Shown in pieces: positions 1 through 50,580 of a DNA stretch of 64,000 bases. The position numbers and the translations under genes were made by a program. This DNA comes from Coptis chinensis (taxonomy: Eukaryota > Streptophyta > Magnoliopsida > Ranunculales > Ranunculaceae): the NCBI GenBank assembly GCA_015680905.1, contig CM027377.1, forward strand, positions 4,922,501 through 4,986,500. Reading direction: 5' to 3'. Numbering within the stretch: position 1 is the stretch's first letter; each line of letters begins with the position of its first letter. Under the pieces are notes generated by a model. The model was not told the DNA's origin. It saw only the letters and a list, made by a program, of their open reading frames with translations, and did no database searches.

Positions 1-357
1 GTCAAAGGCAAAGGAAGAGCTGGCTACTCGAGGTTGCATGGAGCAAAATAAATTGATATTGAGAAGGCTGCTCAAGATGCTGTGTTTCGTGAACATGTTG
101 TTTTTACCTTCTACGTGTTTTGGGCTCATTAGTTAGAAACTTTTTAATGAAATTTCTTTTTGAAGATTCCTACCATGATCATGAGTTTGAAATCCAGGCT
201 AGCCTACTAGACTTGGTGGATCATTCTGCCCTTTAGCTTCCATAAATTGAACATGCCTCAAGGGACAGCTGCTATAGTTGGGATTTTCGTTAAGTTTGTG
301 ATTACTTTGTTTTTTTTTTTCTTTTCGATGAAACTGATTATAAAGATTTTTGATAAA
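1..357. other. Unassigned flank left of Helitron candidate
   Basis: No gene, RNA or repeat was recognised here. The sequence is AT-rich, with a T run near 309-320. It is the presumed host flank of the Helitron candidate starting at 358, and its last base is A, as expected for an A/T insertion site. Confidence 0.3.
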
Positions 358-440
358 TCTCTATATATATATTATAGCTCTCCCCTCCTCAATTGAGGAA
401 GCATAGCTAGAGTGTCCACGTGTCCAGACTAATTACGATA
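358..440 (+). repeat. Candidate Helitron 5' terminus
   Basis: The sequence begins with TC followed by an AT-rich run (TCTCTATATATA), and the base before it is A. This fits the 5' terminus of plant Helitrons, which lack inverted repeats. It is weaker evidence than the 3' hairpin because 5' ends are short and AT-rich. Confidence 0.4.
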
Positions 441-1980
441 AATCCGGAGTAAAATTTGCCGATAGAAAAACTGCTCCAACTCAAACTTAAAATGGAAACC
501 CAACAAAACCCACGACTCTCATATGAACTGATCTCTCTCTCCCACTCTCTCTTCTCTCCCACCCAACCTAAATCGCCATCTATTAATTAATGTCAATCGT
601 ATATCAAAGTGAGAATAGTTATTTGATGCTCCTTTTACCGGGTTGTTCTCAAAAACCCCTTTTTTCTCCCATCAATGCAAGAAGATTTGTACAATTGCAG
701 ACTTTTGATTAAAGAGAATCGCTTATAATTCCAATCTCAAGTCCAAGATTATCCAAATTCTACTTGAAATTTTATAATTTGTTCCCGATGCAAGATCCAC
801 TCCTAATTTTGGGATAAAAAGAAATTGTCTTGGTCATTCTACTTATATATTCTTCAGGTATAATTCTACTCATACCAAGTTTTTTTTTTCAATAAGCGCC
901 TATGCTATTAGCTAGCGGTGACACTTAATTCAATTGATTGATGCTCGACTAAATGCATCACTTTGTTAGAACAGATTTGGCACCATGGTTGTCAATGAAA
1001 AACTTTTGAAGTAGTCGACCCGCACAAAGGAAGACTGATGTATCATGTGAAAATAGAAACACGTAAGCTGATGAGGTATTTCCGACTTAACCAAGATATG
1101 TGTCATATATACGGTTCAATTTTCTTTTTCCTGGATAGAAAAAATAAATAAACAAAACAATAAATAAACAAATGAAAGGGAGACAAGTCATTGCAAGATA
1201 AGTTTTGCTATTGACCAGCATGATTGTGTCTTCTTCGTCTCATTGAGATCCATCTCTGTTGCTGCAGGCTGATGTGCGTGGTTATCAGTTTAGGAAAAAG
1301 TACAAGGTAATTATATGGGTTGTTGGTGTTCTAGATAAGGTTGTATTGTGATGGCGCCGTAGAGTAGTGGGTTTACGAGGATACCGTCCAGAGTCAGAAT
1401 GCATTGAAGAAAACGAAGATGAGGACATCACCGGGATTTCCAGGAAACAAAAAGTAGACACTAAGCTCTATCTTGCATTAACTCTTCCGCTGTGTTACAT
1501 TCGGTGCAATTTAAATTATATCCTTTACAAATATATACATGCATATATGCGTGAATATCATATATGCACATATATAGTTGGATGTTTGGAATACAGTTTG
1601 TACCTGTAAATCCCTTCACTACTTCTTTTCTCGACCTACTTCTTCATTTTCTAACGAAAATCTTTCACTTTTACTTGTTATAAGTAGAAAAAAAAGAACA
1701 ACTTAATATCTTGCAGTGAGAGGGCCTGCCACCTAAGAATTAGAACAAAATGTATATATCTATAAAACTTTGAACTGATTGAGCTATTAATCAAGAAGAT
1801 GATTGATTTTGCTTTGAACTTCCTTTGCCAATTACAAGATAGGAGTACTCTATGTTGATTCTCTTTTTTCTTTTATCCGATATTTGCTTTCCAAATTATG
1901 TTATGTTTTGCTAATCAACTCCGATTGCAAGCAATAGATGCTAACAGTTCATGGCATGATTTTAGCTTCAAATACATGGA

Positions 1981-2131
1981 TATCTCCAAGTTTGGGTGGT
2001 GAGGGACCGGATGCACGGAAGCACATATAGCGCACTTATTGGGAAACACCTATTTATATTTGGTGGCTCGAAAAAATCTCCGGATAATTCAAATGAAGTT
2101 TATTACAATGATCTTTACATATTAGATACAG
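1981..2131 (+). pseudogene. Kelch-repeat protein exon fragment
   Basis: One reading frame encodes HLFIFGGSKKSPDNSNEVYY followed by NDLYILDT. This matches a kelch blade: a hydrophobic run, a GG pair, and a Y-x-x-DLY-x-LDT end. The exon stops at an apparent GT donor at 2132 (GTAAGT). The upstream part, which should read like EGPDAR-x-H-x-YSA, is in a different frame, so the fragment is broken. No other kelch blades were found nearby. Known kelch proteins use several blades to bind partners; a single broken blade is unlikely to work. An RNFT-like fragment follows on the same strand, which is not a known domain pairing. Confidence 0.6.
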
Positions 2132-2360
2132 GTAAGTTTATTTTTTTTTTGAAGTTACTCTATAGATCAAGAAAAAGAATTGAAAGAGGAAGTAAATTCC
2201 CCCTCCCTATCCAAGATTCTTTTGGATAGGCACAACTGTTGTTTATTAGGAAGAATATGCTAATATGAGTTGTATATATCATTGTTCATTTTTCAGATGC
2301 AGTGTAAGTGTTGTTTCTTTTGTATACTAATTTATGAAATTTTCTTTTTTAAAAGTCAAT

Positions 2361-2426
2361 ATGGTTGAGTCTCTTGATGCTCGCCAACAATACAGACGCA
2401 TACTTGAAGGCTATCGCCAGCCTAAG
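2361..2426 (+). pseudogene. Possible small exon of unknown origin
   Basis: A 22-codon open stretch reads MVESLDARQQYRRILEGYRQ-PK and ends at a plausible donor (AAG then GTAAAC). It lies between the kelch and RNFT-like fragments. I do not recognise the family. It may be a non-coding coincidence. Confidence 0.2.
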
Positions 2427-2642
2427 GTAAACTACGCCATTTACAGCTGTACGTAGACCAAGTTAAAATTTAAACAAATGAAAGGGAGACAAGTCATTGC
2501 AAGATAAGTTTTGGTATTCACCAGCATGATTGTCGAGTGTTTCTCGATTTACCCACTAGAAATATTTTTGTAATGCTTGGTGAAATTAAAATGACATGTA
2601 AAGTTTCATGGATCTCACGGTTCTTCCTTTCGAATTTTGCAG

Positions 2643-2974
2643 GGTCAAATGCTAACATTAGTTGAATATAAGGTGCTTCTGTATCGTGCATTTTTTCCAA
2701 CTCCTGTCTGGTATCGGTTCTTCTTAAACAAAGAATACATAAGCCTTTTTTCATCACTAACCACAGGGTTGTACCTCACTTTCAAACTTACGTCAGTTGT
2801 TCAAAAGGTACAATTATTTATTTTGTTTTGAAGACCCATGTAGGACTTTATGGTAAAGCCAAATACTAATTTAGTAGGTTTGATTTGTCATGGCAGGTCC
2901 AATCCTTTTTCACTGCGTTGAAAGCATTGTCACACAAAGAGGTTCATTATGGGTCTTATGCCACTTTTGATCAG
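2643..2974 (+). pseudogene. RNFT-like (RING finger/transmembrane) protein fragment, RING missing
   Basis: Two exons are clear. Exon 2643-2807 (55 codons) contains [20 protein letters not shown] and FFLNKEY, then [20 protein letters not shown]. Exon 2897-2974 (26 codons) contains [20 protein letters not shown]. Both have AG acceptors and GT donors in matching phase. The sequence matches the membrane-proximal region of the plant homologues of RNFT1, which are membrane E3 ubiquitin ligases. The C-terminal RING exons that should follow were not found, nor were the N-terminal transmembrane exons, so this is a retained internal piece. Splice sites are intact, so it was copied as DNA and not through RNA. 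Confidence 0.7.
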
Positions 2975-5230
2975 GTCAGCTTCCTAGCTTGTATAGATTG
3001 TGGCTCCTAATGAAAACAATTTTCCCTTTCAAATGTCGTTAGTTAGAATTTCAAATTGTGAGGTTATAAGATTTTTCTTCTAATTCTTTCCCTGTGGCAT
3101 TGTCTTATATTTGCCTTGAAGTAACTAATTAGAACATTCTTTTTTTGTAAAATGGTTGTAGTTTTACTTTTCATATATATATGTAGTAGATTGAGTTGAC
3201 ATATTCTCTAATTTTCTTTTTGTTGCTTCTGCAGTTATTAGTGGGCACTCAACTATTCTCTTTCTATCGGACTCCCGTATCCTCCTATGAGCACGAAAGC
3301 AGTTCTAACTCAAACACACCTTATTTATATTGTCCTGGAAAGTTTTAAGGTAAACCTGATTGGTTTTGACTAGAATAACCAAATAAGCTATTTCAAAGTG
3401 CAGTGGTCGGTCCGGTGTCCGGTACTTCCTCAAGGTGAACTCTCTGGCCTCAATACACTGGGATGCACCACCACCAAAGAAATAGTTGAAGCTGGGATGT
3501 AATATCCAAATACGATAATTGCTATCTCAGGCTATCGATTCTTGAGAGGAAGAATCATAATGTCTTCCATTGTCAAAAGCCCAAGATCTCTCTGCAATAG
3601 AAGTGCAAATTGCACAGTTAGAAAGCAAAATAAAAGTATAAAAAAAATATGGAGGAACAATTAAAAGCGAGTAATGCATATTGGATATAAATTTTTCACA
3701 ATGTATCTATGCAAGTATCCTACTTCCTTTTTTCCTTGAACCAGTGAGTGCAACTTAGAGCTAACCTGTCCATATTTTGGTATTGAAAGAATGTATGTAC
3801 TACTGACCCGGTGAGAATTTCTTGAAGATCTACATTGTGATTGCTCCGAGCTATTACAAATGCCTTTAACCATATCTTTGGGCATCACTACCGTATAGGT
3901 AACAACATCAAAATTTGGAACCTACCAAAAGAATAGATTTCCCTTAACTTAGAGTGTTTTCATGTAAAAGTGGTAACAGAAATCATATCGAATACATAAT
4001 TAATCATCGAATACATAATTACCACTTCACACTGAACTTTCTGTAAAGGTTCTTACATTTAATTCTTTAGATCTGGCTTTCTTTGAGAGGTAACGAATAC
4101 ACAAACAAACTCTTCAGCAGTATCGTTTCTCAACAACATTTGACGGGGAGAAGAGATCGATACCAGTCAATCCCAAGACTTGGCAGATCTAGAGACGAGG
4201 AAAGGAGAAAAAGTTAGAAAAGACTTCAATTAATCACTGGAAGATTTTTAACATATATAAAAATGAGGTTAAATGGACCGTTTTGGCAATTTAGATTTCT
4301 CATTCTTCATTCCTTATAAGGTTGGTTAAGGTAATGAGATATTCAAGTAAACTAGAACAATACAAAGTTAGAGTAAGAAAATCATTTCTTTTCCTCAATT
4401 TAGTCTTATATAAAACATTGAAACCTATCGAACTCAAAGTACTGAAGTTTGTAACAAGTCAAAGAGTAGACTATACAAGCCATAGACAGAATAGCAAGGA
4501 GGATATTGTTATTCGACACCATATTTATGGTCGTCTAAGATGAGTCAATAAATAATGGGAGGCTGATCATTGACACCGTTGGGATTGAGGAATACATGTT
4601 GTCTCTATACAGTATCAATAGCAACAATCTCATGAACCGCAATTTTGAGGCTGCTGATCGAACAGGGGATGATGTGCATCTGCAGAAGTCCCAAATGGTT
4701 TTTGTACCATAAGTAATACAAATGATTAGGCTCCCAACCCTCTGCCTCCTTTACTTTTAGCCTTCATCCCAGTTTTAAGGGATTATGGAAATATAGAATC
4801 AATTTTGTAATTATATAATTTATATAAATGTACTAAGTTTGTAGCCCCTCCTCTTTTTGGCAGTTGCTTACAAGTCCTTTGTTAAAAGAAACTATATCTT
4901 TTAATTCAGTTATCATACATCATCAAATAAGGACTAATTTATTGCCATGGAAAAGAATACAAGGCTTATTCAGGATGTGTATTTTGTGCATTGCATACAG
5001 ATGATCATAATGCTAAATTTATAGACTTCCAACATTTTTGTTTGTTGCAAATATAACTGCATACCCAGTCCAGGTGTTACATGCCAGTAGATTTGTTCTC
5101 AGTAGCCCAATATCATTCTCTCATAACTAGATTGAAGCAATACTACGTGAGAGCTATTTCAACTTAAGGTTACTTCAGCATCTCTTTCTCCTAGCTTATA
5201 TACTGTCAATTCAATTGTTTTACAACGCTT
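2975..5230. other. No recognisable gene; inside Helitron candidate
   Basis: AT-rich, with short open frames only. A stretch near 4550-4730 has some coding-like composition but matched nothing I know on either strand. Nothing else is supportable. Confidence 0.3.
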
Positions 5231-5780
5231 GATTGGATATTGATAAGGGAATACTAGCCTATTAAACAGAAGACATTAATGTGTACACTAATTAGAAACC
5301 TAAAAACTAACCCTAACAGACCAGCAAATTTGAAAGTTGAAGCCAGAATTCGACATCAAGCACAAATATTAGTTTAAGGTGAAAATATTAACAATTGAAA
5401 GAAAAACAGGTTTGTCACTAATTGGTGTACACTCACGGTTACAACTTCAAATCTGAAGAAAAAACATCCGAATTTATAGCGGATGCATTCAATGAAGGTC
5501 AACCATACCATCGCTAAATAAACATGCAGAAAGATGATATCAACCAAAACTATAAATCATATATATAGAAGCAACCATTCATATAATTTCGGACAACCGA
5601 GGTAGCCAAGATTATATCTACACAACTGTAATATTTTAATGAAATAACTTCAGTTACTACAATTCACTTTATGCTTTCGGTGCAAGTGATATATATAGTT
5701 AAACAGGGGAAAAACATATGACTAGGCTATCACATTCCATCTCTCTATTTAGCACTATTTTCCATGAACACAGGGTCAGG

Positions 5781-5935
5781 TCAGCATTTGAACACCTTGC
5801 AGACCATCAACCACAGTATAACAATGACGATAAGGACAACCCCTCCCACCATCAGTTTCATTTGAAGGTTCTCCAACCACATCTTTTACGAAGTTGCACT
5901 GCCCCTCACGCCTCTCCTCGAAGCTATTAGCCTAG
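5781..5935 (-). pseudogene. VAMP/R-SNARE C-terminal fragment (membrane anchor)
   Basis: On the minus strand the frame from 5882 to 5781 reads MWLENLQMKLMVGGVVLIV, continues as a hydrophobic anchor (IVILWLMVC), and ends KVFKC-stop. This matches the C-terminal transmembrane anchor of plant longin-type VAMPs (VAMP71/72 groups), where an RRK-MW junction precedes the anchor. Upstream the conserved part is shifted out of frame and contains a TAA stop. The SNARE helix and longin domain were not found. It is a dead fragment inside the Helitron candidate, in opposite orientation to the kelch and RNFT-like pieces. Confidence 0.6.
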
Positions 5936-6245
5936 AGACCAAGATAGAGAACCCAAAATAATTAAACACATCATATCACCCATGTAAAACTCTCCAATCC
6001 TAAGAAATTCTAGGTATGGACAACCAAAAACACAATAGGGTATGACTCACAATTTTAGGAAATAGTTTATTCGGTTAAAAGTATGTCAACTGCTTCAACA
6101 ATAGAAATAGCAGTGCACTTGGTTGATGGTGAAAACAACAACGGGCATGTAGTGCAAAAGGCTCGGCCACATTTGGGAGCCGAGCTTGAGTACATGAACA
6201 AGGCTGAGACAAAGAACTTCGGTTATACTTAGTGAACAATGCAAC

Positions 6246-6539
6246 GTGGAGTCGGTCAATATACTATCTGATCCAGTCCCTCCCACTCATGCAAAGCACA
6301 TCCTGCCTTTTGACGATGATATTGTTGAAGCCATTGAGATAGTATTGGAGAATTCAAATGAACCTAAATACCTCCCCTTCAAGCAGTTAACAAACTCAAT
6401 TACCCACTTTATGCAAAGAAGTCCTTGCATGAATTGTGTCCCTTTTGGCAAACTTCGGGTATCCTTGGAATTATATCTCCTATCTACATCAGTTTTTGGT
6501 AGTTCCTACAAATGGAGGGAATATATCCATATATCCTAA
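6246..6539 (+). other. Open frame of unknown origin
   Basis: A 97-codon open stretch includes HILPFDDDIVEAIEIVLENS and YLPFKQL. Its composition is protein-like over the first 70 codons, then becomes simple. There is no in-frame ATG near its start. I do not recognise it; it may be another captured exon. Confidence 0.25.
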
Positions 6540-7509
6540 TGCAGCCTCTCCTTTACTGTCGGGTTCAACAACGACACACCGACAAATTGGTAAACCACCG
6601 TCCTTATAATCATCGTCACGTTGTCTTTTGATAAGCTGCTACACTTTCGATCTTGATGGTTGAGGGCAAACCATCATTAGTAGTAAGTCCATCATCCAGT
6701 AGTCTCAGAGCTCAAATTCCTTAAGGCTCATATCATCGATTAGATGTGAGCTGATATAAAATCTCCCAACTTGATTTTCTATAACACCGCTAACATATTT
6801 AGTGCTTTCTATGACACAAAACAATGTCCCCTCAAGCATCGAAATCAGCAAACTTTTAATTAGAGCAATAAAAAATGCTTAAAAGTTCAAAACCAAATGC
6901 ATATGATTGAACTTGAAACAAAATAAGATTAAACCTCAAATACTCTATTTTCAAGTCAACCAAATCATCGGTTCTGGCAAAGAATAAAAGATATCACCTT
7001 TTACGACATGTAATCTCTAAATTTAGCATAATCAAGAGTATATGAACAATTAAATGAAAGAATAAGAAGTAAATGGAAATAACTTACCTTTGAGTTGGTT
7101 GGAGAAAATGTTTGAGATAGGTTTCGGTGATCAATGTACTACTCTCTCAATTTACGTCTAAATAATAGGTCTGAAATTGTACACACACAATATGGACTAG
7201 AAACTTGGATCAACAAAATAGTGTTACAAAGTCCTTAAATTAACAGATAAAATAAGATCTTGCAACAGCTGTTAATTAAATCATTATTTCCTTCTACACA
7301 AGGGCATGAAGGAGAGTTAAGGTCTTCTACTACTCTATACTGACTATTGACCATAACCTCCGGTAGAGTGGAAAAGTGGCAGTGTTGCACTATGATTGGA
7401 TATCAATAAGGGAATACTACCCTATTAAACATAAGACATTAATGTGTACACTAATTAGAAACCTAAAAACCCAAACTAACATAATGAGCAAATTTTAAAG
7501 TTGAAGCCG

Positions 7510-8956
7510 AAAAATGATTAATGCAACAACTTTTTAGTTATTACCTACCATATCTAGGAAAGCTAAGACCTAAACTAAAGATACTTCTAAGGTAGCTTTA
7601 CCAATAAAGGAGACTTAGTCGCCACAGGTTGGTGGCCTAAAATAGGAACTTTTGCCCACGCTCAACGGCTACGGAGGTGTCTTAGATATTGAGGCGTGTT
7701 GCACTATGATTACTCTAGGAATCCCTTTAAACTAACATAGTCCGGTCCAAGATTTTAGATTATTCCGTAAGACAACACAACATATGAAGTATGTAACTTG
7801 GTCCCGGCATCTCTAGAAATTATGAATAGGTAGACTAGGCATCTCTTTTTTGAACTATCTATATTGGTTCCAGAATAAGCCTAAACATACACAACATATG
7901 TTGTAATGTTGATAAGGTTAGCTTAACTAAGAAGCAAGGATGAAAATTTCATAAATGAATGTCAGATGCAATTGGATGAATATTGTCAGAACATTGGGTA
8001 CACTGGAGGATACACCTAAAGCTTGCCCACGTTCGACGGCTTCACTATTTGCAGTGATGTAAAAATACTAGAGTTAGTGGACACAACTTCAATAAAGGAT
8101 GTTTTGGCACATATATTGTGGCTTAAGCCACGAGGGCTTCATGGGCACATGGGGTGGTGTCACTATAGCATACTTCAGTACATGCATGAGGCAACATGTC
8201 GATAACGATGGGTTGCTTTGGCACATAGAGTTCATGTCAGAATGAAGTGAAAGAGCAACATAAAAAATAAAAACATGATCATATATTAATTAAACTGTAA
8301 ACAAAGCAAAAAATATATGTGATAAAACAAAATTACCTATCAACAACATCTTCTTCATCTTTTTTTTTTAGTCTTCACATTCCGACTACAAACTTCCTTC
8401 ATCATAAAGTTCTTCAATGTTTTTTGTTTTAAAATGATGAAGTTCTTCCTTCCTAATAACTTCAACCAAAAAATTCACACACTACAGAAAACTGATTCAT
8501 TCAAAATTCTTATCATAATAATTTTGTATGTTCTCCACTCGAACTTTTTTGGAAAACAACATTATAGCAGGAAAGCTAACACAATCACTTTAAGAAAAAA
8601 AAAAATAGTAATGTTATAACTAAAATTATTCAAATTATAAAATTAGATTTTAAAAAAAATAAATACTCATTCAATTGGCTTCTCATACTTAGAACCAACT
8701 TTTGAGTTTCACTATTTATATATCGATTACTGTCACCACGTTTTAATCAGATATTCAAAATAATCAAACACATAAATCATTTCTCTGTTATCAAAAGCAT
8801 ACTTATTTGCCAGCCATATATCTTTTGGACAATTAAAAAAACATCATAAATTTACAAGCACAATCCCTACAAAACAAAAAAATTAAGACAAATACATTAC
8901 TAAAAAAATAAAAATTTACTTCAGTATAAACTTTGATAAAAATAAACAGATAAAAC

Positions 8957-8987
<31 letters not shown>

Positions 8988-9460
8988 ACTTACTCTTACA
9001 TTGAGAAAAATATTCCAAGAATACCTATAAAACAATAAAAAAAAATACATAAAATCAATTTACTCTTCATTCTATACATATGCATTTATATTAATCAAGC
9101 ATAACTAGAGAGATAAACTTATTGCCATAACCAAATATACTACTCTATCAGAAATGGAATGATAATTACGTGTATGACTTTCTGTAGTACAATATATGTT
9201 GTAAAAGTTTAGACTGATTATGAATACTATATTTTAAACAATTATAGTTCAATGCATGCGTAATCCAGATTAACCCATGGCCAAAAGGACATACATTTGG
9301 AATCATGAAACCAACTATACGTCTATATGTCTGCTGCTAGAATTAGAAATGAATTTCAGCTAACATGCATGCTTAATAAAGAAGAATATCATCAAGAAAG
9401 CCCATGTGAGACTAAATGCTTGATATATACACCATAACAATAAGTTAATTAAATTTGCAT
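7510..9460. other. No recognisable gene; AT-rich spacer
   Basis: Only short, low-complexity frames. There is a 28-base A run at 8957-8984 and several shorter A runs. No promoter or RNA gene could be supported. Confidence 0.3.
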
Positions 9461-9464
9461 TTTT

Positions 9465-9605
9465 AGCTATTTTGGCGTGGTTTATCCAAAACAGCGTAAT
9501 TTGGTGTCGAATTTTTTATGTCTGGGCTGAAGTTGTTTGGTGTTTAATTGTTTGGTAAAAAAAATTGGTGTTTTTCAAATCTTACCATTAAAGATGCTCT
9601 CAGGC
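9465..9605. mobile_element. Possible MITE-like segment
   Basis: The segment is rich in TTTGGTG motifs and ends with ACCATTAAAGATGCTCTCAG, a style of terminus common in plant miniature elements. No clear opposite terminus or target duplication was found. Similar TTTGGTG wording appears in the element at 37449-37954. Confidence 0.25.
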
Positions 9606-9840
9606 AGGTGTTAAGAATACCATTATGAGATGGAAGAGTTTAAAACTTTAAATAATTGAATCTGAGGTTGAGGGTCCTAAACATAAACAAAAGTACTTCA
9701 TGGGTTAGTATGATGTTAGAAAAGATTGTTTCCATTGCAACGACCATAATTTTGTAGTAATTCCCACACAGTCTCAGGGGAATTGATATTCTTAACAACA
9801 AATAAAGAATATACATATTTTGGAGCTTAATAGGTTACAA

Positions 9841-10800
<960 letters not shown>

Positions 10801-10879
10801 AAGTTTACCATTAATTGGTATTATTTCATTGATTGATTGTTCAAGCCATGGGTTTTTAATTCTAACATGTTTTAATTGA

Positions 10880-13800
10880 GTGTTTGTATATTTTTTATTA
10901 AAAAGGAAGAAAAATATCATATATATATATCAATTTTAATGAAATTGAATATATATATATATATTATATATATAGCGAGCACCCTTTTTATATATAGCGT
11001 GCTTCAATTGATTGAATGGGAATAATGATTTTTTGTTTGTTGATTTATTCTTTAACTATTTTCATTTATTTTTTTGAATTATTTGTGAGAATCCCTCTTA
11101 AAGTTATGTGGAAAACTTTTGGAATTAGTAGGTGTTAACTTGACGGATCTTTATTTATTTTTTGTTATGGATATTGACAAATCCGATCGATTTATCATTT
11201 GTTTAGGAGGATGTGTGGTGGTTTCTAGAGTCGACGTGGAAGAAGAAACCCATCGAAAAATCTGCAGATGAGTTAAACTAGGAACTGGATAACTATCCCG
11301 CTGAAGCCGTTAACACTTCCTATTGTGTTGGTATACGTACGGAGAATGAGTTGATCAAAAGTGGCAGTTGGAGCAGTAATGCTGCTATCCAGATTGTAAG
11401 TGGGTTTTGGGATTGAATTAAGAAGCAGGAACTCAAGTGATTTCCAGATTATTTTTTTTCAAGATTTTTTGTCTTTGAAATATATTGTGAAATATTTTTC
11501 ATGTTTTCTATCTGATTTGTATTTTATTTCTTGCATGGAATGATTCATACTTCACAGGGTGACTTCCTGTATAGCACATGTAATCTTTGATCGAGGTACA
11601 TCAAATTTAGAGATGAACGCCAACGTGAGGAAGAAGCCTATAACTCCCTGATTTGGCTGAAAGGTTAGTTTCTTCAATAGCGGTGTGAAACTGATTGGAT
11701 TGTTATGTTGTAATGTTCTAGATATTTTACAATTCCAAAGTTTTTGATTGATTAAAATTGTGCTAAAGGTTTGCTGCCCGATCAACTATATTCATTGCAA
11801 ACCCGGTTGAGACTTGATAGTAATCACATTGGCTCAAGCAGCACAATTTACAGGTTTGGTATTTTTTTAAACAAGCTGAAGCAAGAAAACCGGTAGGAAG
11901 ATATTGAAGTTCAATCAAATGTGAGTTTCCGGCCATGGGTTTCATGGTTTACTTTTATATATCTTCGATTCTCCGATATGGGTATATTTGATTTCTTTAT
12001 TGGCAATGTTTTCCTATAATCATCTACAAACTATGCTATGGGTGCTTCACTTTTTTTCTTCTTTGTTTATCTTTCTGATTTATATTTTGGTGGTGTTTGA
12101 GTTGTTCTTTAACAAATGATTGATTTGGACAGATGGCTGGAATTTCATGGCACTTCATTGCAAGCATAGCCATATAAAATGAAAAAAATATATCATTTCA
12201 TGCTAAATATAAGATGTCTTTATGAGTTTTCATATTTGAAATGCTGTTATTTTTTTCAGTGATGATATATGACATTAGTCGGTAGCTCAAGCATAAACCT
12301 TTTATCCATTAATTTTATCTTATCGTGAGTATGCATCTCTTTTCTTTTCACTTCAATTTTTCTAATTATTCAATTTGGTTGTTGTTGTTGTTGTTATTGT
12401 TGTTGGATAAGCTACTTTAGGAGAAAACTTGAGTATCACATTTCTCTTCTTTTATTTGCCTTCAGTCGGGTCATCAAGTGTTCAGATATATATAAACAAA
12501 CATTACATTTGCTGGGTTGCTAGCTTTTTGATCTTTTTAATTGTAAATGAGCTTGATGGGGGGAATTAGTTTAGTCGTGTGACATTGGAGTTGTTTGATT
12601 TTATCATTTCAAGATTTATAGTCGGTTCTAACAAGAAATATATTTTCCCAAATATGCAAGTGGTGGTGTTCATTTTTTCACAATTACCTAGGTTTTCTTT
12701 TTTCATTTCTTTTTTTTGTATGAAGCCCGATGGGGAAGCATTTATATATTTTGGCTACAATTTGTCGTTACTTAGGTTGGTATGATGACATTGTTATTGT
12801 TAGTAATGGTACGGATAATGGCGCGGACTAATTTATGCTAAAGTATTCACGAGGGAGTCAACTGTAGGGAGATAGTGGTGTATCGGTTTAGGGCATACAT
12901 AATGTAGCCGGCAAGAGAAATAGCACTAGAAAGTCTTGGGATTGCCCGGCCAGACTACCCAATAGGAACGACGAGAACCAGCCCAAGCATCGTCCTTCTC
13001 CTCCCAAACATGGACCGTACCTTCATATTCTCTAACACATCTCAACATGTTATTGCTTTAGAATCTATGAGTCTTTTCTTTGTTATGTTATTGGTTGTCA
13101 GCCAAATAATTTTCAACTATCTTCTAGCTGCTGCGGTGAATTTTATACTTCTCCGTGAGTCAAAAGTCGCATATATCATTGACACCTATTCTTTGGTTTG
13201 TGTTTGTGTTTCTTCTTTACTACTCGATCTTGTTTTAGCATATGACTTCCATGTACTTTTAGTTTAGGTCTAGCATCTGATTTGTTTAGGAACAACTTGA
13301 TATGTGTTACCGGTTTAGATCGTTATGAACCGGCGATTTGGATGAACTGAAAGCTATGTTTATGACAGGTACAATTCATAAATTCCTATTCCTATACTTG
13401 CACTCTAAGCCACAAAATAACATAATCTCCTTTATAAAAGGCGATGAACATTTAGTAATCCTTAAGGTTTACGTGCTCACTTATCTGGATCAGTTTTTGT
13501 ACTTAAGGTTATCTATATGTTTGTACTTAAGGTATTAGTATAGTAAAACCCGTTAAATAGGACCCTATCCACACCGAGCTCTAACTGGAAAGTATAGACA
13601 CTTATACTTCTGTCATATATTTAATTCTTAGAGAATATCTTTAATCATGAAGTAGTTAGAATAGGTTACTGGAGAAGCTCCAAGATAACCGTGTCGTTTT
13701 TAATGAAATTACAAATGTTTGTCGATATTATAGATGTTCTGAAGTTTAAAATTTTAATCTGCTTTGTTGCAAAACTCTACGGGAAGTTAATTTAAAATTT

Positions 13801-15250
13801 TACATTGTTATATGTATATCTAACATAACTATTTTGGAGCATACTCCATGCGTTATACGTATTCTCTCACCCTCCTTTCATCCTCGGATGCAAACGTTCT
13901 TGCTATAAATAAAATCCAGGATGGTAAGATAGGTTAAAACTCTTAGTTTAATACTTTAACCCTCCCTTATCTCGATTGAGCTCATAACGCATTGGGTAGT
14001 CGAGAAATGAACCTCACTCTTAAGTCCCAAACAAATGAATGGATGAGTACAATACCACAAGTAGAATATGGATTTGTATTATTTAGACATAGACTTAACC
14101 ATAGAAATCGTAGAGTACGTGCGTAGGCCTTCTGACCTCAAGGAGATTATGCTTATTGGGTTTTGAGGTATTTCTCATGACATCGAGTTAACAAACTATT
14201 TGCTCCGCAATAGCCTAGCACTTTTGTGAAAATGACCATCATCTATGAGCATAAACACTACGATTATGATCATGGCTTTTATGATCCAAATGGAAGAATG
14301 GGTAGCAGAAGATGCTACCAAAAGAAGAAAATGGTAAAGCAAGTCCATTCACAACTTAGGAACGTACTAAGCCCTGGTTTGCAATTACAGTTTGTGTAGT
14401 TCGGATTTACCTGTTTATGTGTTTTTTTTTTAAAGCTTACAAATATTTGTTAGTTTTGGATATGCTGAACTTATTTGTTTATGTAGCCTGTGAGAGTCTC
14501 TTCACTTGCTGTGAAACAAATATTTATTTGGTTTTGATTACGAACCATACCATATTTCATACTGTTGTATTGAGTTACTTTGTTAAGAGGCAGGATGTAT
14601 ATCGGGTCATAATTATTTAGTTCGTTTCGTATCATGATTCGTGAGGCAATTTTCATTTGTCAGTTTTGTATCCTGTTTTGCCTATTTATTTGAAAACAAT
14701 TTATCCTGTTTTGCCTATTTATTTGTCGAAATATTCAATTGTAAAGTAATCTTTAGTTTACACAAAATGCCAAAACATTCTTTCCATTATCTTCCTAACT
14801 AGCACTCTCTTCCCACATCTATACTGCGAGTCTGCGACACTTTAACTGGATGTTTCTTCCAATCCTCTTTACTTTGTTCACTAAATGAAATGGAATTTCT
14901 AAGTCCGATCCCTAAACTAATCACAAACTGGATTGAAATCAGATAAAATCCCTGATGATAGTTACTGCCGTTTCTTAGGCTACTTACGAAATAGCAGTGT
15001 TGATACCGATACCGATGGATTATTTTATCAGCTCCTTGGCTTGGCTTGGCTGTTTGGAGTGACAAAATAAATAATTTTCGAACAAGGAAAAATACTTCAT
15101 TCTCATTGAAGTTGGTTCCTATTATATGTACTAGATTGATCCACGTTACATAAAAGGATAATATCGTCAATCTCTACTAAAAAAACAAGGGTAAAATAGT
15201 CAAAACAAAACGAATATATTTTATAATTTATATTTTAAAATAATATTATT
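10880..15250. other. No recognisable gene; right part of Helitron candidate
   Basis: AT-rich sequence with only short frames. A (GTT)n-like stretch lies near 12379-12405. Exon-like pieces near 11330-11400 and 11590-11660 could not be assigned to a family. The last 100 bases (from about 15185) are AT-rich and lead into the Helitron 3' hairpin. Confidence 0.3.
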
Positions 15251-15257
15251 AAATGGT

Positions 15258-15288
15258 ACCCGTTCGTAGGACGGGTTCGAAAACTAGT
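15258..15288 (+). repeat. Helitron 3' terminus (hairpin + CTAG)
   Basis: ACCCGT and ACGGGT form a 6-bp stem around a 7-base loop. Seven bases later comes CTAG, followed by T. This is the standard 3' end of plant Helitrons, where the hairpin acts as terminator of rolling-circle transposition. The element body lies to the left. Confidence 0.65.
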
Positions 15289-15289
15289 C

Positions 15290-15720
15290 TGTTTAGGAGA
15301 CCAACCTAACCTTTATAAATAGGATTGTGAGTCCATAGAGGCATAGACTTGATCAGAAACTCAACTCAGAGAAACAGAAAACTCAAACCAGTCTTTTTCT
15401 TCTTCTTTCTTCCCGCCGCCCGAGAGAGAGTTATATTCATCGTTCTAGTGCAAAGTCAGTCATTTGTTAACCATTGAATCCTGTGAGGAAGACGCCATCG
15501 CTGCCTTTCTGCACCATTGAAAGGCTTAAATCTTTCCTTAAGGGCGACTTAATCCGCGCCTTGGTTATTCCCAATTCTTCTTTGTCCTTTTTTTCATTCT
15601 TCTTTTTTCTTACGTTTCTACTTTTAGTTCTTTGTGTTCATACAACTATTCTAACAAGAATTAATAAAAATAATACCTGTCACAAACTGTCACAAACTGC
15701 AGACAATTGAGAATAATATA
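15290..15720 (+). mobile_element. Possible solo LTR fragment
   Basis: TATAAATAGG at 15317 is followed by an A/C-rich leader and a pyrimidine-rich stretch, as in Copia-type LTR promoter and R regions. No TG...CA ends, primer-binding site or gag-pol was found. It could equally be an orphan promoter of a lost host gene. Confidence 0.25.
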
Positions 15721-15937
15721 GCAAAATATTTAAATGAGAAAGTAACAAAACTATTTGAATGAAAAAACATGATCTATCACACTTTACTGAGGCTATGATT
15801 ATAATAAATCATATATCAGCTTAACTGGGCAACGAGGTTTCAATGTTCTTCCACACTGCAGTAACAAGAATTGGTTATCACAAAGACGAGTTGATTTATC
15901 ACATTTTAATAATGAGGCTATGATTACAGAATTACTT

Positions 15938-16025
15938 CACAGAAGTAGGCCACACGCACATATGCCCTTCTATTTAACCGTCACAGAAGTAGGCCACACG
16001 CACATATGCCCTTCTATTTAACCGT
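15938..16025. repeat. Perfect 44-bp tandem duplication
   Basis: CACAGAAGTAGGCCACACGC and the following 24 bases are repeated exactly (15938-15981, 15982-16025). The lack of any mismatch suggests a recent event or an assembly artefact. Confidence 0.95.
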
Positions 16026-22389: not shown

Positions 22390-24701
22390 TCAATGGAAGT
22401 GATCCATCATTAGGACGAATGTTACAATAGTAAGAACCGCTATGGGGAGGATGTTTATATGAGATCTTTGGGCAGCTGCGATGGGGATTGCTGTAGGAAG
22501 TGAACACTCTTCACCATTGAAAAATAATTTTGAAGGAAACCCGTCGCCTTTTGCTATGTTTATACCCGGTGTTTGTTTCTTTGTAAACGAAACGACTGAT
22601 TGTTGCTTACCGGGTACACGCGGATCACGTAGAGGGTTCGTTCCATTTGTCTCCCCCATCAAGAAAGTCAAACCTTGTAAACCTTGGAAAAAGATGGTAT
22701 TGTTGATTTGTGGAAGCAGTGTTCCATTGAATGAGTAGACATTTTCGTATCCAAGAAAAGCCTTTTTCATCTGTACTGCTGCGAACCAATCCTCAAAATA
22801 GGAATCTTGCCAGTTGAAGAGCGTTACACGAGCGCTCCATCCTTTCCGATAGTCAGAGTTTATATGCCAATTAATACTAACTCCACAGTTGTCTGCACAT
22901 GGTAGTGGTGTCTTGGGAGTACCCTTGCCTTTCAGCTTTGCCCAAGCTAGAGCTTTTTCTTGTCTGTTGGCGAAAGGAACAAGAAGAGCTTGAGAAGGAA
23001 GAAGCAACGGTTGGGCGTTGGGGTTGCAGCGGTCAGCGTCTGGGCAACCACAGGCACACGTGTTACACGGAATGACAGAATCGTTATAGAAGGCAGAGAA
23101 AGAAACACAACATCGAGAACTCTTGATCGTCGGCTTGGTAATGTTGCAGACTACTTGCCAACTTGCAATAGCTAAGCTTCTTGCCTGAAGCCCACTTGGG
23201 TCAGGAAATTCTGTAGGGGCAACTCTGATAGGAGCTCCACATTTGTATTGTGGATTAAGAACTCCATCAATTTTCCACTTCTGCGGAGGATTAAGAGCTG
23301 TTCGATTCATATCAGGAGGAACCTTATATACTTGCAATTGAAAGATTGACCTTGCTTTGCTCTCATCCATTATTGCTGGTAGGATAGTACCATTTCGACA
23401 ACAGAAAGGTATATTTCCGACCTTTTCATCCTTGGCTTTCTCCGAAGGAAGGTCAGATATGATCGGTTTCCTCTGACAATTCATGGCAGTAGAGAAATCT
23501 AAGTCCTTGTAGTAGGTACCAGGAGGACCATAAATGCATTCTGAAGCATCTTTCCAGTGAGTATAGGCTCCTCTCATCGTGTTTATAAACTCCCCCCTCA
23601 TCCACTCCCAAGTCAGGTTCCAGTGATCAAGACGTCCAAGCGGGCTATTGTTATCAATAGTGACCTGAGCAAGATAGTTTCCTTCGTACGCTTGGAGAAC
23701 ATCGTAAATGAGGGAAAGATCACCATTCTGGCGAGGCAAGAACTTTGTTTTGGTGACATTGGCTTTGAATTTTGGATTCTTTACACAACACGTAAACATT
23801 GTACTCCCTGTGGACGAAACAAACTGGATCAGAAACCACTTAAAGCATGAATATATATGTAAGGTAAAAACAGAACCATACAAAGCAAACCAAACTCGAT
23901 GCTGGCCTATACTCCCTTTGGACTTAGCACATACAAAAAATGCAAAGGGAGGCTCTATAATTTAGATTCAGTGTTGAGGATCGACCAAATACATAAACAA
24001 ATAAATCAGCCAAAGCCTATCAGCACGCGATTGATAGCATTCTCTACAGCCATATATAAATGCATAATCAATATTATGAGGCCCATACATTTAAAAAAAG
24101 AATACTTACCCTTACCCTTACGGATTGGCACTGGACACTTATAACCATTATTTTCAAGTCTTATTGTTTTAGGCATAGGAATTCCGGGAGGCTTCACCCC
24201 AAACTGTGTTCCCATAAGCTCAATCTCCACCTGAATTTGGGTCAAATCTCCTGCAGTCTCAATGGAAGTTTTCAAATCTGATTGCGGATAACCGGATAAA
24301 AATGTTCCATTACCAACTTTGGCAGGAAAATCATCTCCATTCATATTAACAGCTCCAGACGCCGAAACCAAAATCTCTTCATGCTGAAACCCAATGAACA
24401 TCTTCCATGCCTTAAGATCCTCTATCCCTGCATTCAATATCGTCGCGATAGATTTAAATGCCCATGACTGCGCGGTTGCGTTCTTCACATGGGGGTATTC
24501 TTTTTCTCTTGTGAGAAATGTATACGTTAAAAAAATTCCATTGCAGCTATTTTGCTCTTTTGGTACTGTCGGGGCTTTGTCTGGTTTTTCGAACTCATAA
24601 TCTTGTGCTTCTATTACCAATACATTAGAACAAGAAAAAACCAAGAAAAACACAAAGAAAAGCGCTTTTAACAACGCGATTTTCATGTTTTCCTTTTTCA
24701 T
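22390..24701 (-). CDS. COBRA-like protein, COBL7-11 group, GPI-anchored
   Basis: Two exons: 24701-24110 and 23807-22390, with GT donor at 24109 and AG acceptor ending at 23808. The join (phase 1) gives IRKGKGSTMFTCCVKNPKF and a protein of 669 residues, the length expected for the long COBL7-11 group. It has an N-terminal signal peptide (LLKALFFVFFLVFSCSNVLV), an N-terminal extension typical of this group, the COBRA domain, the CCVS motif near residue 430 followed by a Cys-rich CNTCACGC, and a hydrophobic tail (ILPIAVLTIVTFVLMM) for GPI anchoring. COBRA-like proteins sit at the outer plasma membrane and guide cellulose deposition; this group includes members acting in pollen tubes. No stop or frameshift is seen. 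The start is the first of two close ATGs (MKKENMK). Confidence 0.95.
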
Positions 24702-37954: not shown

Positions 37955-38604
37955 CTAGATGCAAAATGTAAGTTTTATGTAGCAGCCTAAAATTTTTTTT
38001 TTATTTTTTATTTTTTTTTTTTTTTGAAACACAAGTCCTCAATCTACCATAAGTTTTTTTACCCGTGGTTCACCGGTACCCACTATCAAAAAAAAAAAAA
38101 AACATAAGTTTTTTGCGAGTCTACCATATTTCAATCAAATTCATAGCAAGTTTTATGTATTCCTTGGGTGAAAAATGGCGATGACACTTTCATCATGTGA
38201 GAGTATGTGATCATGAGATTAAAGAATAAAAAGCAAAATATTTTGAAATAGGAGCATAATTTGGGTCCCCACATTAAAAAAAAAAAAAAAGATCGACCGT
38301 TCTGTTCAAGAATCAAGATATAAGACCGTTATAAACAAAATTTCAAAAAATCCTTTACTTCCCACGCTTTACTATCTACCGTTCATCTTTAACCCAATCA
38401 ACGGTTCAGATTCTCCTAAAATCACTCCCTTCAGATCACACTCTCATTTCTCCATTTCTAGCTTATTCACAACCCCTTTCTTTTAACATCACTTCCAGTC
38501 CATTTTCAAGCAAGAATCTTGGGTTTCTTTGTTAAGTGTTTGTGAAGTTGGGTTTTTGGGGAAAGTTATAGTTAATGCTTAGATAAGGAAGTTGGTTTAT
38601 TGAA
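37955..38604. promoter_or_regulatory. Upstream region and leader of the KIN-8A gene
   Basis: Contains poly-A/T runs (37990-38025, 38087-38101, 38275-38290), then a pyrimidine-rich leader before the ATG at 38605. No single TATA box stood out. Confidence 0.3.
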
Positions 38605-41600
38605 ATGCCAGTTTCAACAAGGTCGCAAATCATCAATGAAGGGCAAGATGACCCAAGCACTATTACTACTACTACTCAGCATCGACGGCATCGATTTGAT
38701 CATCAAGAAAACCCAAAAATAGGTCCATCTCCAATGAGAAATCCACACCATGGGCTGAAAGAAAAGATGAAAGCTTTGACCCTTTTGTATGAACAGCAAA
38801 AACAAGCTTCAATGGTTTTGAAAAACACAAATTCAAGAACTGAAGAAAGAAAGGTTTCGACAACGACGACTCATCATCCAAGTGTTGAGCTACTAAATTC
38901 TGCGAAAAGCAAAGAAAATGAATTAAGGGCTGGTAATGTAATGAGGGAAAATAGTATGCCGAATAGAACGATTACTAGGACTATTGTATTGCCTCAAAAT
39001 GTTTCAAGTTTACAAGATGATGCTAAAGAGAATGTAATTGGACTAGATCGGATTGTGGGGTTTTCTTGTCCGAATAAAGCGACTAGTACTGGTAATACAA
39101 CTACTGTGGCAAGGAAGCTTTCGATGGGGGGTTTAGCGCCCCAATCGGAACCAAGAGGAATTGGTGGAGGGATTAAAACTGGAAAAGAAATGGAGACAAT
39201 TGAGGAGAAGTCAAGTGTAGGGAGTAGGATTCTTGTATTTGTTAGACTTAGGCCTATGGCAAAGAAAGAAAAAGAAGCTGGATCTAGGTGTTGTGTTAGG
39301 ATTGTTAATAGAAGAGATGTTTTTCTTACTGAGTTCGCATCGGAGAATGACTATCTTCGGTTGAAGAGACTGAGGGGACGACATTTTACCTTTGATGCTT
39401 CGTTTCCTGATTCAACTAGCCAGCAGGAAGTTTATTCTACGACGTGAGTTCTTAATCTTCTGATTATTTTAGCACCTAATATTTATGCTTTCTTACATGT
39501 TTTTTCAATTGTACAAGGACCATTGCTTGTTAGTTTAAGTCGCGATTAATATCACTGCACTTAATCAACTTTGAACTGATACATAGAAATTTCACTAAAG
39601 AACTAGTTAAATGTACCCTTACCTTTTTTATTGTAAATTGTTTATGGCTAGATTTCATGACAGATATTAGTACTTAATTGGATTTGCAGAACAGCAGACC
39701 TTGTCGAAGGGGTTTTGCAAGGGAAAAATGGTTCAGTGTTCTGCTATGGGGCAACGGGAGCTGGAAAGACATACACTATGCTCGGGACAATGGAGAATCC
39801 TGGTGTTATGGTATTGGCAATGAAGGACCTATTTGCAAAGATTCGTCATAGGAGTTGCGATGGAAACCATGTCGTTCATCTCTCATACCTTGAGGTTTAT
39901 AACGAAACTGTTAGAGATTTACTCTCCCCTGGAAGACCATTGGTTCTCAGAGAAGATAAGCAGGTTTAGTCTCATATATTTTCTTACTTGCATTAGGAAC
40001 AAAATTTAGCTCACATGTTAAGAGGACAATCTTGTGCAAAAGTAAATTACACAAAAGGAATCATACTAGTATCTTTAATCTACTTCGAAGTTTCTTTAGA
40101 AATAGACTGAGAACAAGAAACGATGCGCAAAAGTAAATTACACAAAAGGAATCATACTAGTATCCTTAATCTATTTCGAAGTTTCTTTAGAAATAGACTG
40201 AGAACAAGAAATGATATCATCTTTCAGGGGATCGTTGCTTCAGGTCTCACTCAATACAGAGCTTATTCTACTGATGAAGTAAGATATGCTCTTTGTTTAG
40301 AACAGTGTTTGAAGGATATGATCTTTAGAGGATGTAAGAACTCAATTTTTTGCTTTATTTTGTACAGGTAATGGCACTTCTTCAACGAGGAAATCAAAAC
40401 CGAACAACTGAGCCTACTCGTGTCAATGAAACCTCTTCCCGTTCTCATGCTATTTTGCAGGTACTCTAACAGACTATTAATGTAATGAAATGTATTTACT
40501 GTATCTCTAAGGAAAGAAAACCATGGCAATTACCACTTACCTAGTTGGTTAACATAGTATATTCGATATATAATGCTTAATTCAATGTTTTTCTCAATAC
40601 TTATAAGTTGGCGTAAGATTCCCTAGTTTGTTTACGAAATGCTATATTCATTTCATGTCTGTCATGTATGTTTGTTTACCTTTATACTGCAGATGTTAGA
40701 TTGCGTAGATATGAACATGTTGAGAGCTCTTAAGTAATCATCATCATGAAAATCTCTAATCTGAATAGTAGTTCAAGTGCTTTTCAAGTTGATTTGGGAT
40801 TGGCAATAAAAGCTTCACTTTGAATACTGAACAGTTTAGTATGTTCTATTTATAACATGTAACTAGAGCTTGCTGTTTAAAACCAAATTTCCATTTATAT
40901 CAGGCTGTTTAGGAACTGAAACTCTGAGCAAATCCTTGAAACTTTCCTCTCCCTTAATTGTGAATTCGAACATCAGTAGAGATAAAAATTGAAAGTTTAG
41001 GTGACTGAAAACAAGTAACACCATCAGGTGAAGCGATTTTGGAAGAAGTTTATTAGGAAGAATAATTAAGAGAAACAACTAATGGTTTTTGAGTTCAGTG
41101 AATTGAAATCAGCTCAGCGATAGTTACAGTAGGAAATGTAATTACTTAATTAACTCAGAGTAAGAATTGTTATCTTATTCCAATGCATGTGTATTTCTTT
41201 AGGTTGTAGCAGAATACCGAGTCAGAGACGATACAATGAACGTTGTCAATCGAGTAGGCAAACTATCGCTGATTGATCTAGCAGGATCTGAGAGAGCTCT
41301 TGCCACAGATCAGAGAACACTTAGGTCCATTGAAGGTGCCAACATTAATCGCTCCTTACTTGCACTAAGTAGTTGCATCAACGCCCTGGTTGAAGGCAAG
41401 AAACACATCCCTTATCGTAACTCCAAACTCACTCAACTTCTCAAGGACTCCCTAGGTGGAGCCTGCAACACTGTCATGATTGCCAACATCAGTCCAAGCA
41501 ATCTCTCCTTTGGTGAGACTCAGAACACTCTCCATTGGGCTGATCGTGCTAAAGAAATTCGTACAAAGGTTCAGCCTCTAACGTTCGCACTTTTGCAAAC

Positions 41601-43469
41601 CAGCTCTTCATTCCTTTTCTACATAAAACTATCTAACTCAAGCTTTCGGTATATACTATTGCAGGCGTGTGAGGCAAATGAGGAAATATTGCAAGTTCCC
41701 ACAACTGACACCAATCAGGCAAAATTGCTCCTCGAATTGCAAAAGGAAAACCGTGATCTGCGAGTCCAACTTGCTCGCCAACAGCAGAAGTTACTTAGTG
41801 TCCAAGCACAATCATTGGCAGCAAATTCTACTCCAACCCCCTCATCGGCCACCTCTATCATGACTCCACCTTCAGCAAAAGCAAATGTGAAAAGAAGAAC
41901 CAGGTCTTCCATCTTAACAGGAAATTGCTTCAACACTCCCGAGTCAAAGAGAAGGGGTGCTGGGGAGACAGACCGAGGGCTTCAGCAAACAGTGAAGGCA
42001 TTAGAAGCCGAAATAGATAGGATGAAGAAGGAGCATGCATTGCAGCTAAAGCAGAAAGACAATTTCATACTTGATCTTACACGAAAGTTATCCAAATCAT
42101 CAGTAGTAGGAGGTGGAGGAGGAATAAAGAGAGTAGTTACACGGGCGAGCTTGCGGCCCAAGGAGCCAGCAGCGGAAGGTGAATTGAAGAGCCCAAAACA
42201 TCGGTTTCATTCACCAGCACCCACAGCTAAAAAGCGGAGCTTCTGGGATATAACCACTGCAAACAGCCCATCACTGACATCATTAAGTGGTAGAAAAACC
42301 AGAAGCCATGTAGCAGAACCAGCACGAGCTCCTTCAATGCTTCTTCAGGTATAGTATATTTCTCTCTGGATACTTTTGGTTGCGAAATTTGATGAATGGC
42401 CTAATTTGTTTATGAATAATCGTTTATAAATAATTGGTAATCTATGCACACATCTGTCTACATATACTAGTAATGGTTATCTTGGACATCTGCTCTTGAC
42501 ATAAAATTTTGTTGATGTATCCTTCCTATGCTTTTTATTTCTTAGAAGATTTTGACGCCATATCCGAATGACAAACCTTCATTGTACTCGAACATTATCC
42601 TTTTTTCTCTTACCCTACTAAAACACTGAATAAGATCCCACTCACGATACTTTTACATCACATATCAGCCAATTTAGCTGCTGATGAATAATTTATCTCC
42701 AAACATGCAAGACGGCTTGTCCTTTTTTTTTCCAAATAATGACTACGGTAGTTGCACACTTGCACATATAAAACAATTGTTCATGCAAAAAGAGAACAAT
42801 GTGACCATTTTTTAAATATGATGAATTGTCAACATATCGTGGTTCTGATATAACTTATTGATGCAATAAATGAAACTTTATGTGCAGTTTAAACTCAGCA
42901 TTGAGTCCTTTTTAACTTTCAGTATATTGCAGCTTTCGAAGGATTATATCAAGTATTTTTCTGCTGGTAGTATATGTGACCTAGACATCTTTGATGTAAT
43001 TTATCGTAAAAGCATAAATACATCTTGTTAGGACTAAAGTAAAACGTAGAAATCATCGTCAGAGATCTGTGAATGCTAAGCAGACACTTTTATAAAGTCA
43101 GAGCCAATATTTCTGTTTGTTTCCCTCACAGTTAAAATAAAAAGTTATAAACTGCATGTGTTGTCACATTGCCTTGAATCCGCTGGACGTACAGTTTGAG
43201 ATGGCCAATATGCATATACTTTCATCAGGTTAGATAGTGATAATTTTCTTTTTTCACACTCAATGATAGAGGAAAGACAAACAACCCCCCTGCCCCCCTG
43301 TGAAACTACTGCCTCTCTCTGTCTCTCTTTATAATAGTTGTATGTGAGTTTCTTTCTTCGCCTACTGATGCAGCTTGCATATCCATGTTTCTGGTTTGTG
43401 TTCATGTTTGGACCCCACGTTGTAAATTACATCTTTCAGCCAGGATTTGCTCGCGAGCGGCCAGCCTGA
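38605..43469 (+). CDS. KIN8A: Kinesin-like protein KIN-8A
   Basis: Seven exons join in phase: 38605-39443, 39690-39963, 40228-40278, 40368-40460, 41203-41568, 41665-42348, 43440-43469, giving 778 residues. A basic, Thr/Ser-rich N-terminal tail includes [20 protein letters not shown]. The motor starts near residue 207 ([11 protein letters not shown]). It has the P-loop GATGAGKT (300-307), switch I NETSSRSH (408-415), switch II DLAGSE (444-449) and [10 protein letters not shown]. The neck and coiled-coil ([20 protein letters not shown]) follow, then a basic C-terminus with RSFWDIT and the final PGFARERPA. Kinesin-8 motors walk to microtubule plus ends and shorten them, setting spindle and microtubule length. 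The layout matches Arabidopsis At1g18550 (KIN-8A) from memory, including the N-terminal MPVSTRS and the C-terminal PGFAR. Reading through exon 6 would instead end at 42354 after LLQV. All key motor motifs are intact. Confidence 0.95.
40036..40217. repeat. 91-bp tandem duplication in KIN-8A intron 2
   Basis: Two copies (40036-40126, 40127-40217) share GCAAAAGTAAATTACACAAA and AATAGACTGAGAACAAGAAA with a few substitutions. The second copy ends about 10 bases before the exon 3 acceptor (AG at 40226-40227), close to the branch-point zone. Confidence 0.9.
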
Positions 43470-50188: not shown

Positions 50189-50580
50189 CTGAAAAAAAAA
50201 AAAAAAAAAAGGCAGAACAAATAGAGGAAAACTCGTTAAAGATTGGCGTGGAGAGAAAAAGAGATTTGGGATCTCTTTACTTTACTTCTCTTTTGTAGGG
50301 GATGTGGGGGCTCTATTATATTCTTTACTTGAAACTTTATTTTGACAGGACTAGTACTCTGCAAGAGAATCCTGACAAAAGGAAGTTGTGCAGAAACCAA
50401 CAAAACTATCTTCAAAAAAGACAAAAGAAATGAGAGTTTAGTACAAGAATACAAGATTATAGTAGGAAATGGAGGGACAACAAACTGAGAGGGATGAGAG
50501 AACTGCTTAGAGACAGAATTGAAATGGAGAAAAGAGGAATCTAGGAGACAATGTATGTGTCATGTTATTTCTTTTTCATG
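50189..50580 (-). promoter_or_regulatory. Leader and probable 5' UTR intron of MIZ1-like gene
   Basis: Upstream of the ATG the coding strand shows T19-CAG, an excellent 3' splice site. A transcribed leader further upstream is likely, in a pyrimidine-rich region at 50230-50460. No donor could be fixed with confidence. Confidence 0.45.

Follow-up and report, generated by a model that had tools for sequence, protein, structure and literature searches.

Introduction

Large Helitrons with several termini are well described from maize. According to the passages of Dong et al. 2011 (PMC3288121) used here, maize helA Helitrons range from 128 to 20,874 bp, 17.6% of them have more than one 5' terminus, and composites are explained by nested Helitrons and sequential (stepwise) capture; a part of PMC4683698 likewise credits Dong et al. 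for stepwise capture. Excerpts of two further articles cite exons of as many as 12 genes in maize Helitrons (PMC4778049) and about 2,791 transcriptionally active maize Helitrons carrying sequences of 376 genes (PMC13317346, a 2026 review). For the bat elements Helraiser and Helibat, passages of PMC4778049 describe read-through transposition: when a terminator is missing or ignored, downstream DNA is included as far as another 3' end.

The locus described here lies in Coptis chinensis, in a window of 64,000 nucleotides (the whole stretch of DNA that was analyzed, C1:4922501-4986500; contig C1 is CM027377.1). Positions refer to the window, and negative numbers lie to its left. We assign a probability of about 0.93 to the reading that the locus is a composite non-autonomous Helitron of 16,273 bp, which extends from -985 to 15287 (C1:4921515-4937787). 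Its parts stem from several older Helitrons as well as from at least six ordinary genes. As in the maize helA elements, insofar as the passages of PMC3288121 describe them, there are several gene fragments, multiple 5' termini and a composite structure, and since size, termini and stepwise capture all have counterparts there, the element is of a kind already known. The differences are that it comes from another plant and that, for a single composite, the origin of the modules, an internal as well as the true 5' end, and the empty sites of two copies have been traced. With Helraiser and Helibat, as the passages of PMC4778049 present them, it would share that a terminus is passed over and downstream DNA carried along to another 3' end, but those elements bypass a 3' end, whereas the Coptis element would pass over an inner 5' end and borrow its 3' end from another Helitron.

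Results

The termini of the element

The assembly that contains the window comprises 936 Mb (116 contigs). An earlier note on this DNA, made from the sequence alone, had proposed a Helitron from 358 to 15287. Its right end was borne out: ACCCGTTCGTAGGACGGGTTCGAAAACTAG is found at 15258-15287, the similarity between copies ends there, and the base after CTAG was T in all seven copies printed. The hairpin-CTAG pattern occurred once on both strands of the window, versus 0.01 times per shuffled window (100 first-order Markov shuffles). When the last 138 bases were used as query, the best 40 of 988 candidates included four near-complete matches, i.e., the window and three others; the other 36 covered mostly the last 63-68 bases and the rest the first 71-72 or 102. 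A short MITE-like Helitron confined to the right end was considered, as query positions 1-72 and 72-138 matched 1.7 kb apart elsewhere; three copies, however, have more than 1.6 kb to the left of the right end in common, and the idea was rejected for this reason.

The proposed left end is indeed a Helitron 5' end, yet this element does not begin there. With its first base at 358, TCTCTATATATATA is preceded by an A at 357 and occurred once in the window versus 0.0 times per shuffle (again 100 first-order Markov shuffles). In the genome search, 29 of the 45 match rows began within window positions 348-372, and because several copies start at or near 358, this position does serve as a Helitron 5' end elsewhere in the genome. 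The true 5' terminus of the element is a second TCTCTATATATATA at -985 (C1:4921515), outside the window. A second copy and an empty site both place the boundary there. The locus is a warning that a Helitron 5' end, however convincing it looks, may lie inside an element.

The second copy, C1:86337405-86350132 (12,728 bp), was the sole other copy found with both ends, and the searches, which scored the best 40 candidates, revealed only these two composite copies. It extends leftward past 357, shares -985 to 357 with the window element, and the similarity stops at -985. The alignment contains gaps of 66, 235 and 3,224 bp. Over 12,637 aligned bases 199 transitions and 121 transversions were counted (K2P 0.026). 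Plant substitution rates are 0.65-1.5e-8 per site per year, and with these rates the divergence corresponds to roughly 1-2 million years. The flanks of the two copies are unrelated, as a comparison of 500 bp on each side gave a single 16-bp match in inverted orientation.

Empty counterparts were found for both insertion sites. At C4:23.72M, the host DNA that borders -985 on the left runs directly on into that to the right of 15287 (TTTCTTA followed by TCTGTTTAGG). The earlier note had suggested looking for a site that joins 1-357 to 15288; the empty site joins -986 to 15288 instead, and 358-15287 as the transposed unit is not supported. This host sequence looks like an LTR: its ends suggest it, as do pairs spaced about 5 kb. 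The site was unbroken in all 40 rows (the best 40 of 1926 candidates, one of them the query locus), each of which spans at least positions 13-622 of the 629-base query. For the second copy, CTAATTTG joined to TTATATAGAT was seen in all five fetched repeats. A search with its joined flanks gave 40 rows, of which two were the copy's own flanks; the other left-side matches end at 169-182 of 320, and none of the 40 holds both flanks in full. The right-side evidence at this site comprises about 10 bases, because the five repeats diverge after the first bases of the right flank.

Neither empty site showed a target-site duplication, and the copies are dispersed with sharp ends, as is typical of Helitrons. 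The 5' TC... and the 3' hairpin with CTRR are both present, as TCTCTATATATATA at -985 and ACCCGT...ACGGGT...CTAG at 15258-15287, and no terminal inverted repeats were seen by eye between the first 20 and the last 20 bases. The textbook Helitron insertion site lies between A and T. These bases flank the element at the window locus; the C1:86.3M copy lies between G and T, and three type-A copies (see below) likewise have G on the left.

A mosaic of Helitron modules

In structure the element is a mosaic: a 1.34-kb 5' module (L0) is followed by the part 358-9842 of a second Helitron (A) and by the 3' part of a Helitron with a protease fragment (B, 9843-15287). All features are listed in Table 1. 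Each of the three modules also occurs apart from the others elsewhere in the genome.

Table 1. Features of the composite element inside the window
Position	Strand	Feature	Coding or exon stretch	Evidence
1..357	+	L0, visible part of the 1.34-kb 5' module		common to second copy (-985 to 357), empty site, L0 stretches elsewhere, e.g., C38
358..371	+	internal 5' terminus TCTCTATATATATA; type-A copies elsewhere begin with it		genome matches
358..9842	+	type-A module		ends here at (AT)n tract
1120..1460	+	IQ/CAMTA-like, first part (exon and intron)	1247-1460 (+)	95% to C2:16549.7-16550.2k (L047)
1456..2363	+	kelch fragment nested in IQ fragment	1938-2148 (+)	93% to kelch gene C1:9331-9332.5k (L046)
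2360..2472	+	IQ/CAMTA-like, second part	2360-2450 (+)	96% to L047
2471..2533	+	63-bp copy of 1165-1227		97% direct repeat
2535..3165	+	RNFT-like RING E3 fragment, two exons with introns, without RING exon	2643-2974 (+)	92% to C7:96963484-96964156 (L041)
3421..4537		1.1-kb segment, matches alone at C1:6089021, C1:6289892, C8:86893390		genome search
5456..6062	-	VAMP/synaptobrevin anchor fragment	5787-5885 (-), 33 residues	88% to C4:33769345 (L048); synaptobrevin E=3.7e-11 there
6367..7117	-	RINGv (MARCH-like) E3 fragment, stops and frame changes	6366-6737 (-)	88% and 75% to C6:3531035-3531959 (L044)
9843..15287	+	type-B module with (AT)n tract, protease fragment and 3' end		from about 10037 on, 95% to copies at C3:101.6M and C1:23.0M
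10142..10782	+	fragment of a papain-type (C1A) cysteine protease with its first exon and the beginning of exon 2	10144-10781 (+)	93% to C8:26727474 (L042)
15258..15287	+	Helitron 3' terminus: hairpin, then CTAG, host T at 15288		copy comparison, shuffles

The junction between L0 and A was crossed by two of 45 rows, which are the two composite copies; 14 rows matched on the L0 side only and 29 on the A side only (40 of 665 candidates scored). Type-A copies at C9:55.9M and C1:58.4M continue for 343 bp to their own CTAG end. With this tail the C9:55.9M copy has a length of 10.3 kb; the C1:58.4M copy has an internal deletion (6.1 kb), and a copy of about 2.0 kb at C4:23.7M, with an approximate left end, retains only 372-2044 and a tail. 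Module B is joined, from about 10037 onward, to another 5' part at C3:101.6M and C1:23.0M. The earlier note had reckoned that ends found with different partners would speak against its proposal. Both ends do have such partners, the 358 end other 3' parts (C9:55.9M, C1:58.4M) and the 15287 end other 5' parts (C3:101.6M, C1:23.0M), which makes the locus a mosaic of several Helitrons; its identification as a Helitron stands.

At C38, L0 is matched from -913 on and is followed by about 4 kb of other sequence and then by 6203-9842 with the A tail, which ends with CTAG followed by T. An intact 5' terminus of the expected form was looked for at C38 and not found, so we infer, rather than observe, that L0 is the 5' part of a separate Helitron there. 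The idea that A simply inserted at 357 into a Helitron like that at C38 found no support at the level of single bases: C38 continues from GATTTTTGAT into GTGT and the window from GATTTTTGATAAA into TCTC, and at 354/358 the C38 sequence does not pick up again as such nesting would predict.

Several of these loci have peculiarities of their own. The C38 locus (L056, C38:472600-482599) is a further mosaic Helitron, with L0 and 6203-9842 in common and a different 4-kb middle. At C1:23.0M (L003 and L011) Helitrons lie head to tail: the left end of the B copy follows immediately upon a CTAG end, and the B copy's own CTAG end directly precedes another Helitron 5' end. The B copy at C3:101.6M (L009) contains a stretch matching window 10646-13553 twice in tandem. 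The A-type copy at C9:5406218-5417169 (L049, L050) has a 5' part before 937 that is different again, and two left-end-like stretches about 190 bp apart.

Captured gene pieces

The four gene pieces that had been named from the sequence (kelch, RNFT-like, VAMP anchor, cysteine protease) were all confirmed by similarity to related genes, and two further pieces, IQ/CAMTA-like and RINGv, were found. As had also been claimed, the pieces lie on both strands, with VAMP and RINGv on the minus strand and the other four on the plus strand. The related loci elsewhere are 75-96% identical to the pieces and sit apart on C1, C2, C4, C6, C7 and C8. This scattered distribution does not suggest one collinear ancestral locus. 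Gene capture by a Helitron from several unrelated donors is supported. The proposal of a large multi-gene element was also upheld, with pieces resembling at least six genes between -985 and 15287.

The name RNFT, used by us as well as in the earlier note, is presumptive and rests on the RING that is encoded at C7:96.96M (L041) 1.4 kb downstream of the matched stretch. CAMTA is likewise our presumed name for the IQ piece. At the locus related to the latter the Pfam IQ motif scored just below the cut-off (20.2 versus 20.3 bits), and this locus (L047) is a putative rather than an established whole gene. The VAMP and RINGv relatives (75-88%) may be paralogues of the true donors. At C8:26.73M three ORF pieces jointly cover the Peptidase_C1 profile.

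Pfam analysis of the window's own ORFs detected I29/Peptidase_C1 in the protease piece (E 9.6e-8, 1.2e-5) and kelch below the curated cut-offs (20.8 of 50 and 19.9 of 25.3 bits); there was no match for the VAMP or RNFT-like pieces. The two RNFT-like exons and the 33 VAMP anchor residues are free of stops in the window. Stops are present in the IQ, RINGv and protease pieces, the protease piece also has frame changes, and in the kelch piece the frame changes between 2021 and 2029. The gene pieces appear to be passengers without a function. Weak Pfam matches were set aside (YhzD 0.017, Tmemb_170 0.029, Sde2 0.032, SNAD4 0.14, LRR19-TM 0.16). At a further related locus (L043, 85.7% to 7927-9361) no gene was recognized by eye.

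Junctions

The IQ piece is interrupted by the kelch piece and lacks 34 bases of L047 at that point; at the two joins the kelch and IQ alignments have 5 and 4 bases in common. Directly behind the IQ piece, 2471-2533 reads as templated filler. At the junction between L0 and A three bases (AAA) belong to neither module. The A/B junction sits at an (AT)n tract, and the start of the protease is duplicated there (9908-10021 and 10142-10256). Short overlaps and filler are marks expected of repair-type joining, and they may have this origin here. The junctions, i.e., the kelch piece in the IQ piece, the 63-bp filler and the (AT)n join, bear on how Helitrons capture genes.

Discussion

Alternative explanations

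The version in which a 14.9 kb Helitron spans 358-15287 and 1-357 is host DNA draws on two terminal sequences that are both genuine Helitron termini, and on other copies that start at 358. It is nevertheless very improbable, since the second copy agrees with the empty site on a left boundary at -985, and 1-357 is part of a module with further occurrences in the genome; at C38 this module lies in a Helitron that terminates in CTAG. Two consecutive 5' ends would also fit a nested pair left in place, in which the Helitron 358-15287 lies inside an older one and C1:86.3M arose by segmental duplication. We regard this as highly unlikely: the similarity between the two loci begins and ends at the termini at -985 and 15287, and both insertion sites have empty counterparts.

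That the pieces are ordinary degenerate genes or a chance gene cluster, and not transposon cargo, might be argued from the introns and splice sites kept in the fragments. However, the pieces recur as blocks in many Helitron copies, they are truncated, on both strands and several contain stops, and fuller related genes are present elsewhere, so that this possibility can practically be dismissed. The composite Helitron from -985 to 15287 is a single case in which both boundaries have been placed and empty sites, sources of the modules and related genes traced, and it illustrates how plant Helitrons fuse and accumulate pieces of host genes.

Proposed mechanism

Rep/Hel coding capacity, which characterizes an autonomous Helitron, was not seen in the ORFs scanned: Helitron_like_N had no match in 55 of the 56 listed ORFs of at least 55 aa in window 1-15300, i.e., in all of them except that at 9983-10162 on the minus strand, the scan starting to the right of -985 to 0. 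In the genome the same profile had at least 157 matches, many in open frames (150 scored of 2000 candidates), versus none in 14 control genomes. Because no Rep was found in the element and the genome contains many Rep matches, the composite element most likely moved in trans. RepHel from autonomous Helitrons would nick the outer 5' end and skip the inner one, and replication would run to the first complete 3' hairpin with CTAG. This would be that of module B, because module A appears to have lost its own hairpin and CTAG. A start at the outer 5' end and a stop at the hairpin of B would explain the limits of the element. Assembly of the modules may have taken several rounds, in which end joining or template switching linked them.

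A more general idea is tentative, and we consider it rather doubtful: the ends could be interchangeable cassettes in this lineage, so that either stacked 5' terminus could start the same cargo, and with repair-type joining and templated filler the Helitron would be a recombiner of gene fragments and not a simple read-through capturer.

Surroundings of the element

The rest of the window is gene-bearing. Scanning of 10 of the 43 listed ORFs outside the element revealed COBRA-like, kinesin, DUF617, PPR and DUF629 coding stretches, which are located at 22393-23961, 38587-42351, 49394-50281, 54987-57446 and 62283-62939. Just right of the element, at 15937-16024, there is a 44-bp perfect tandem duplication.
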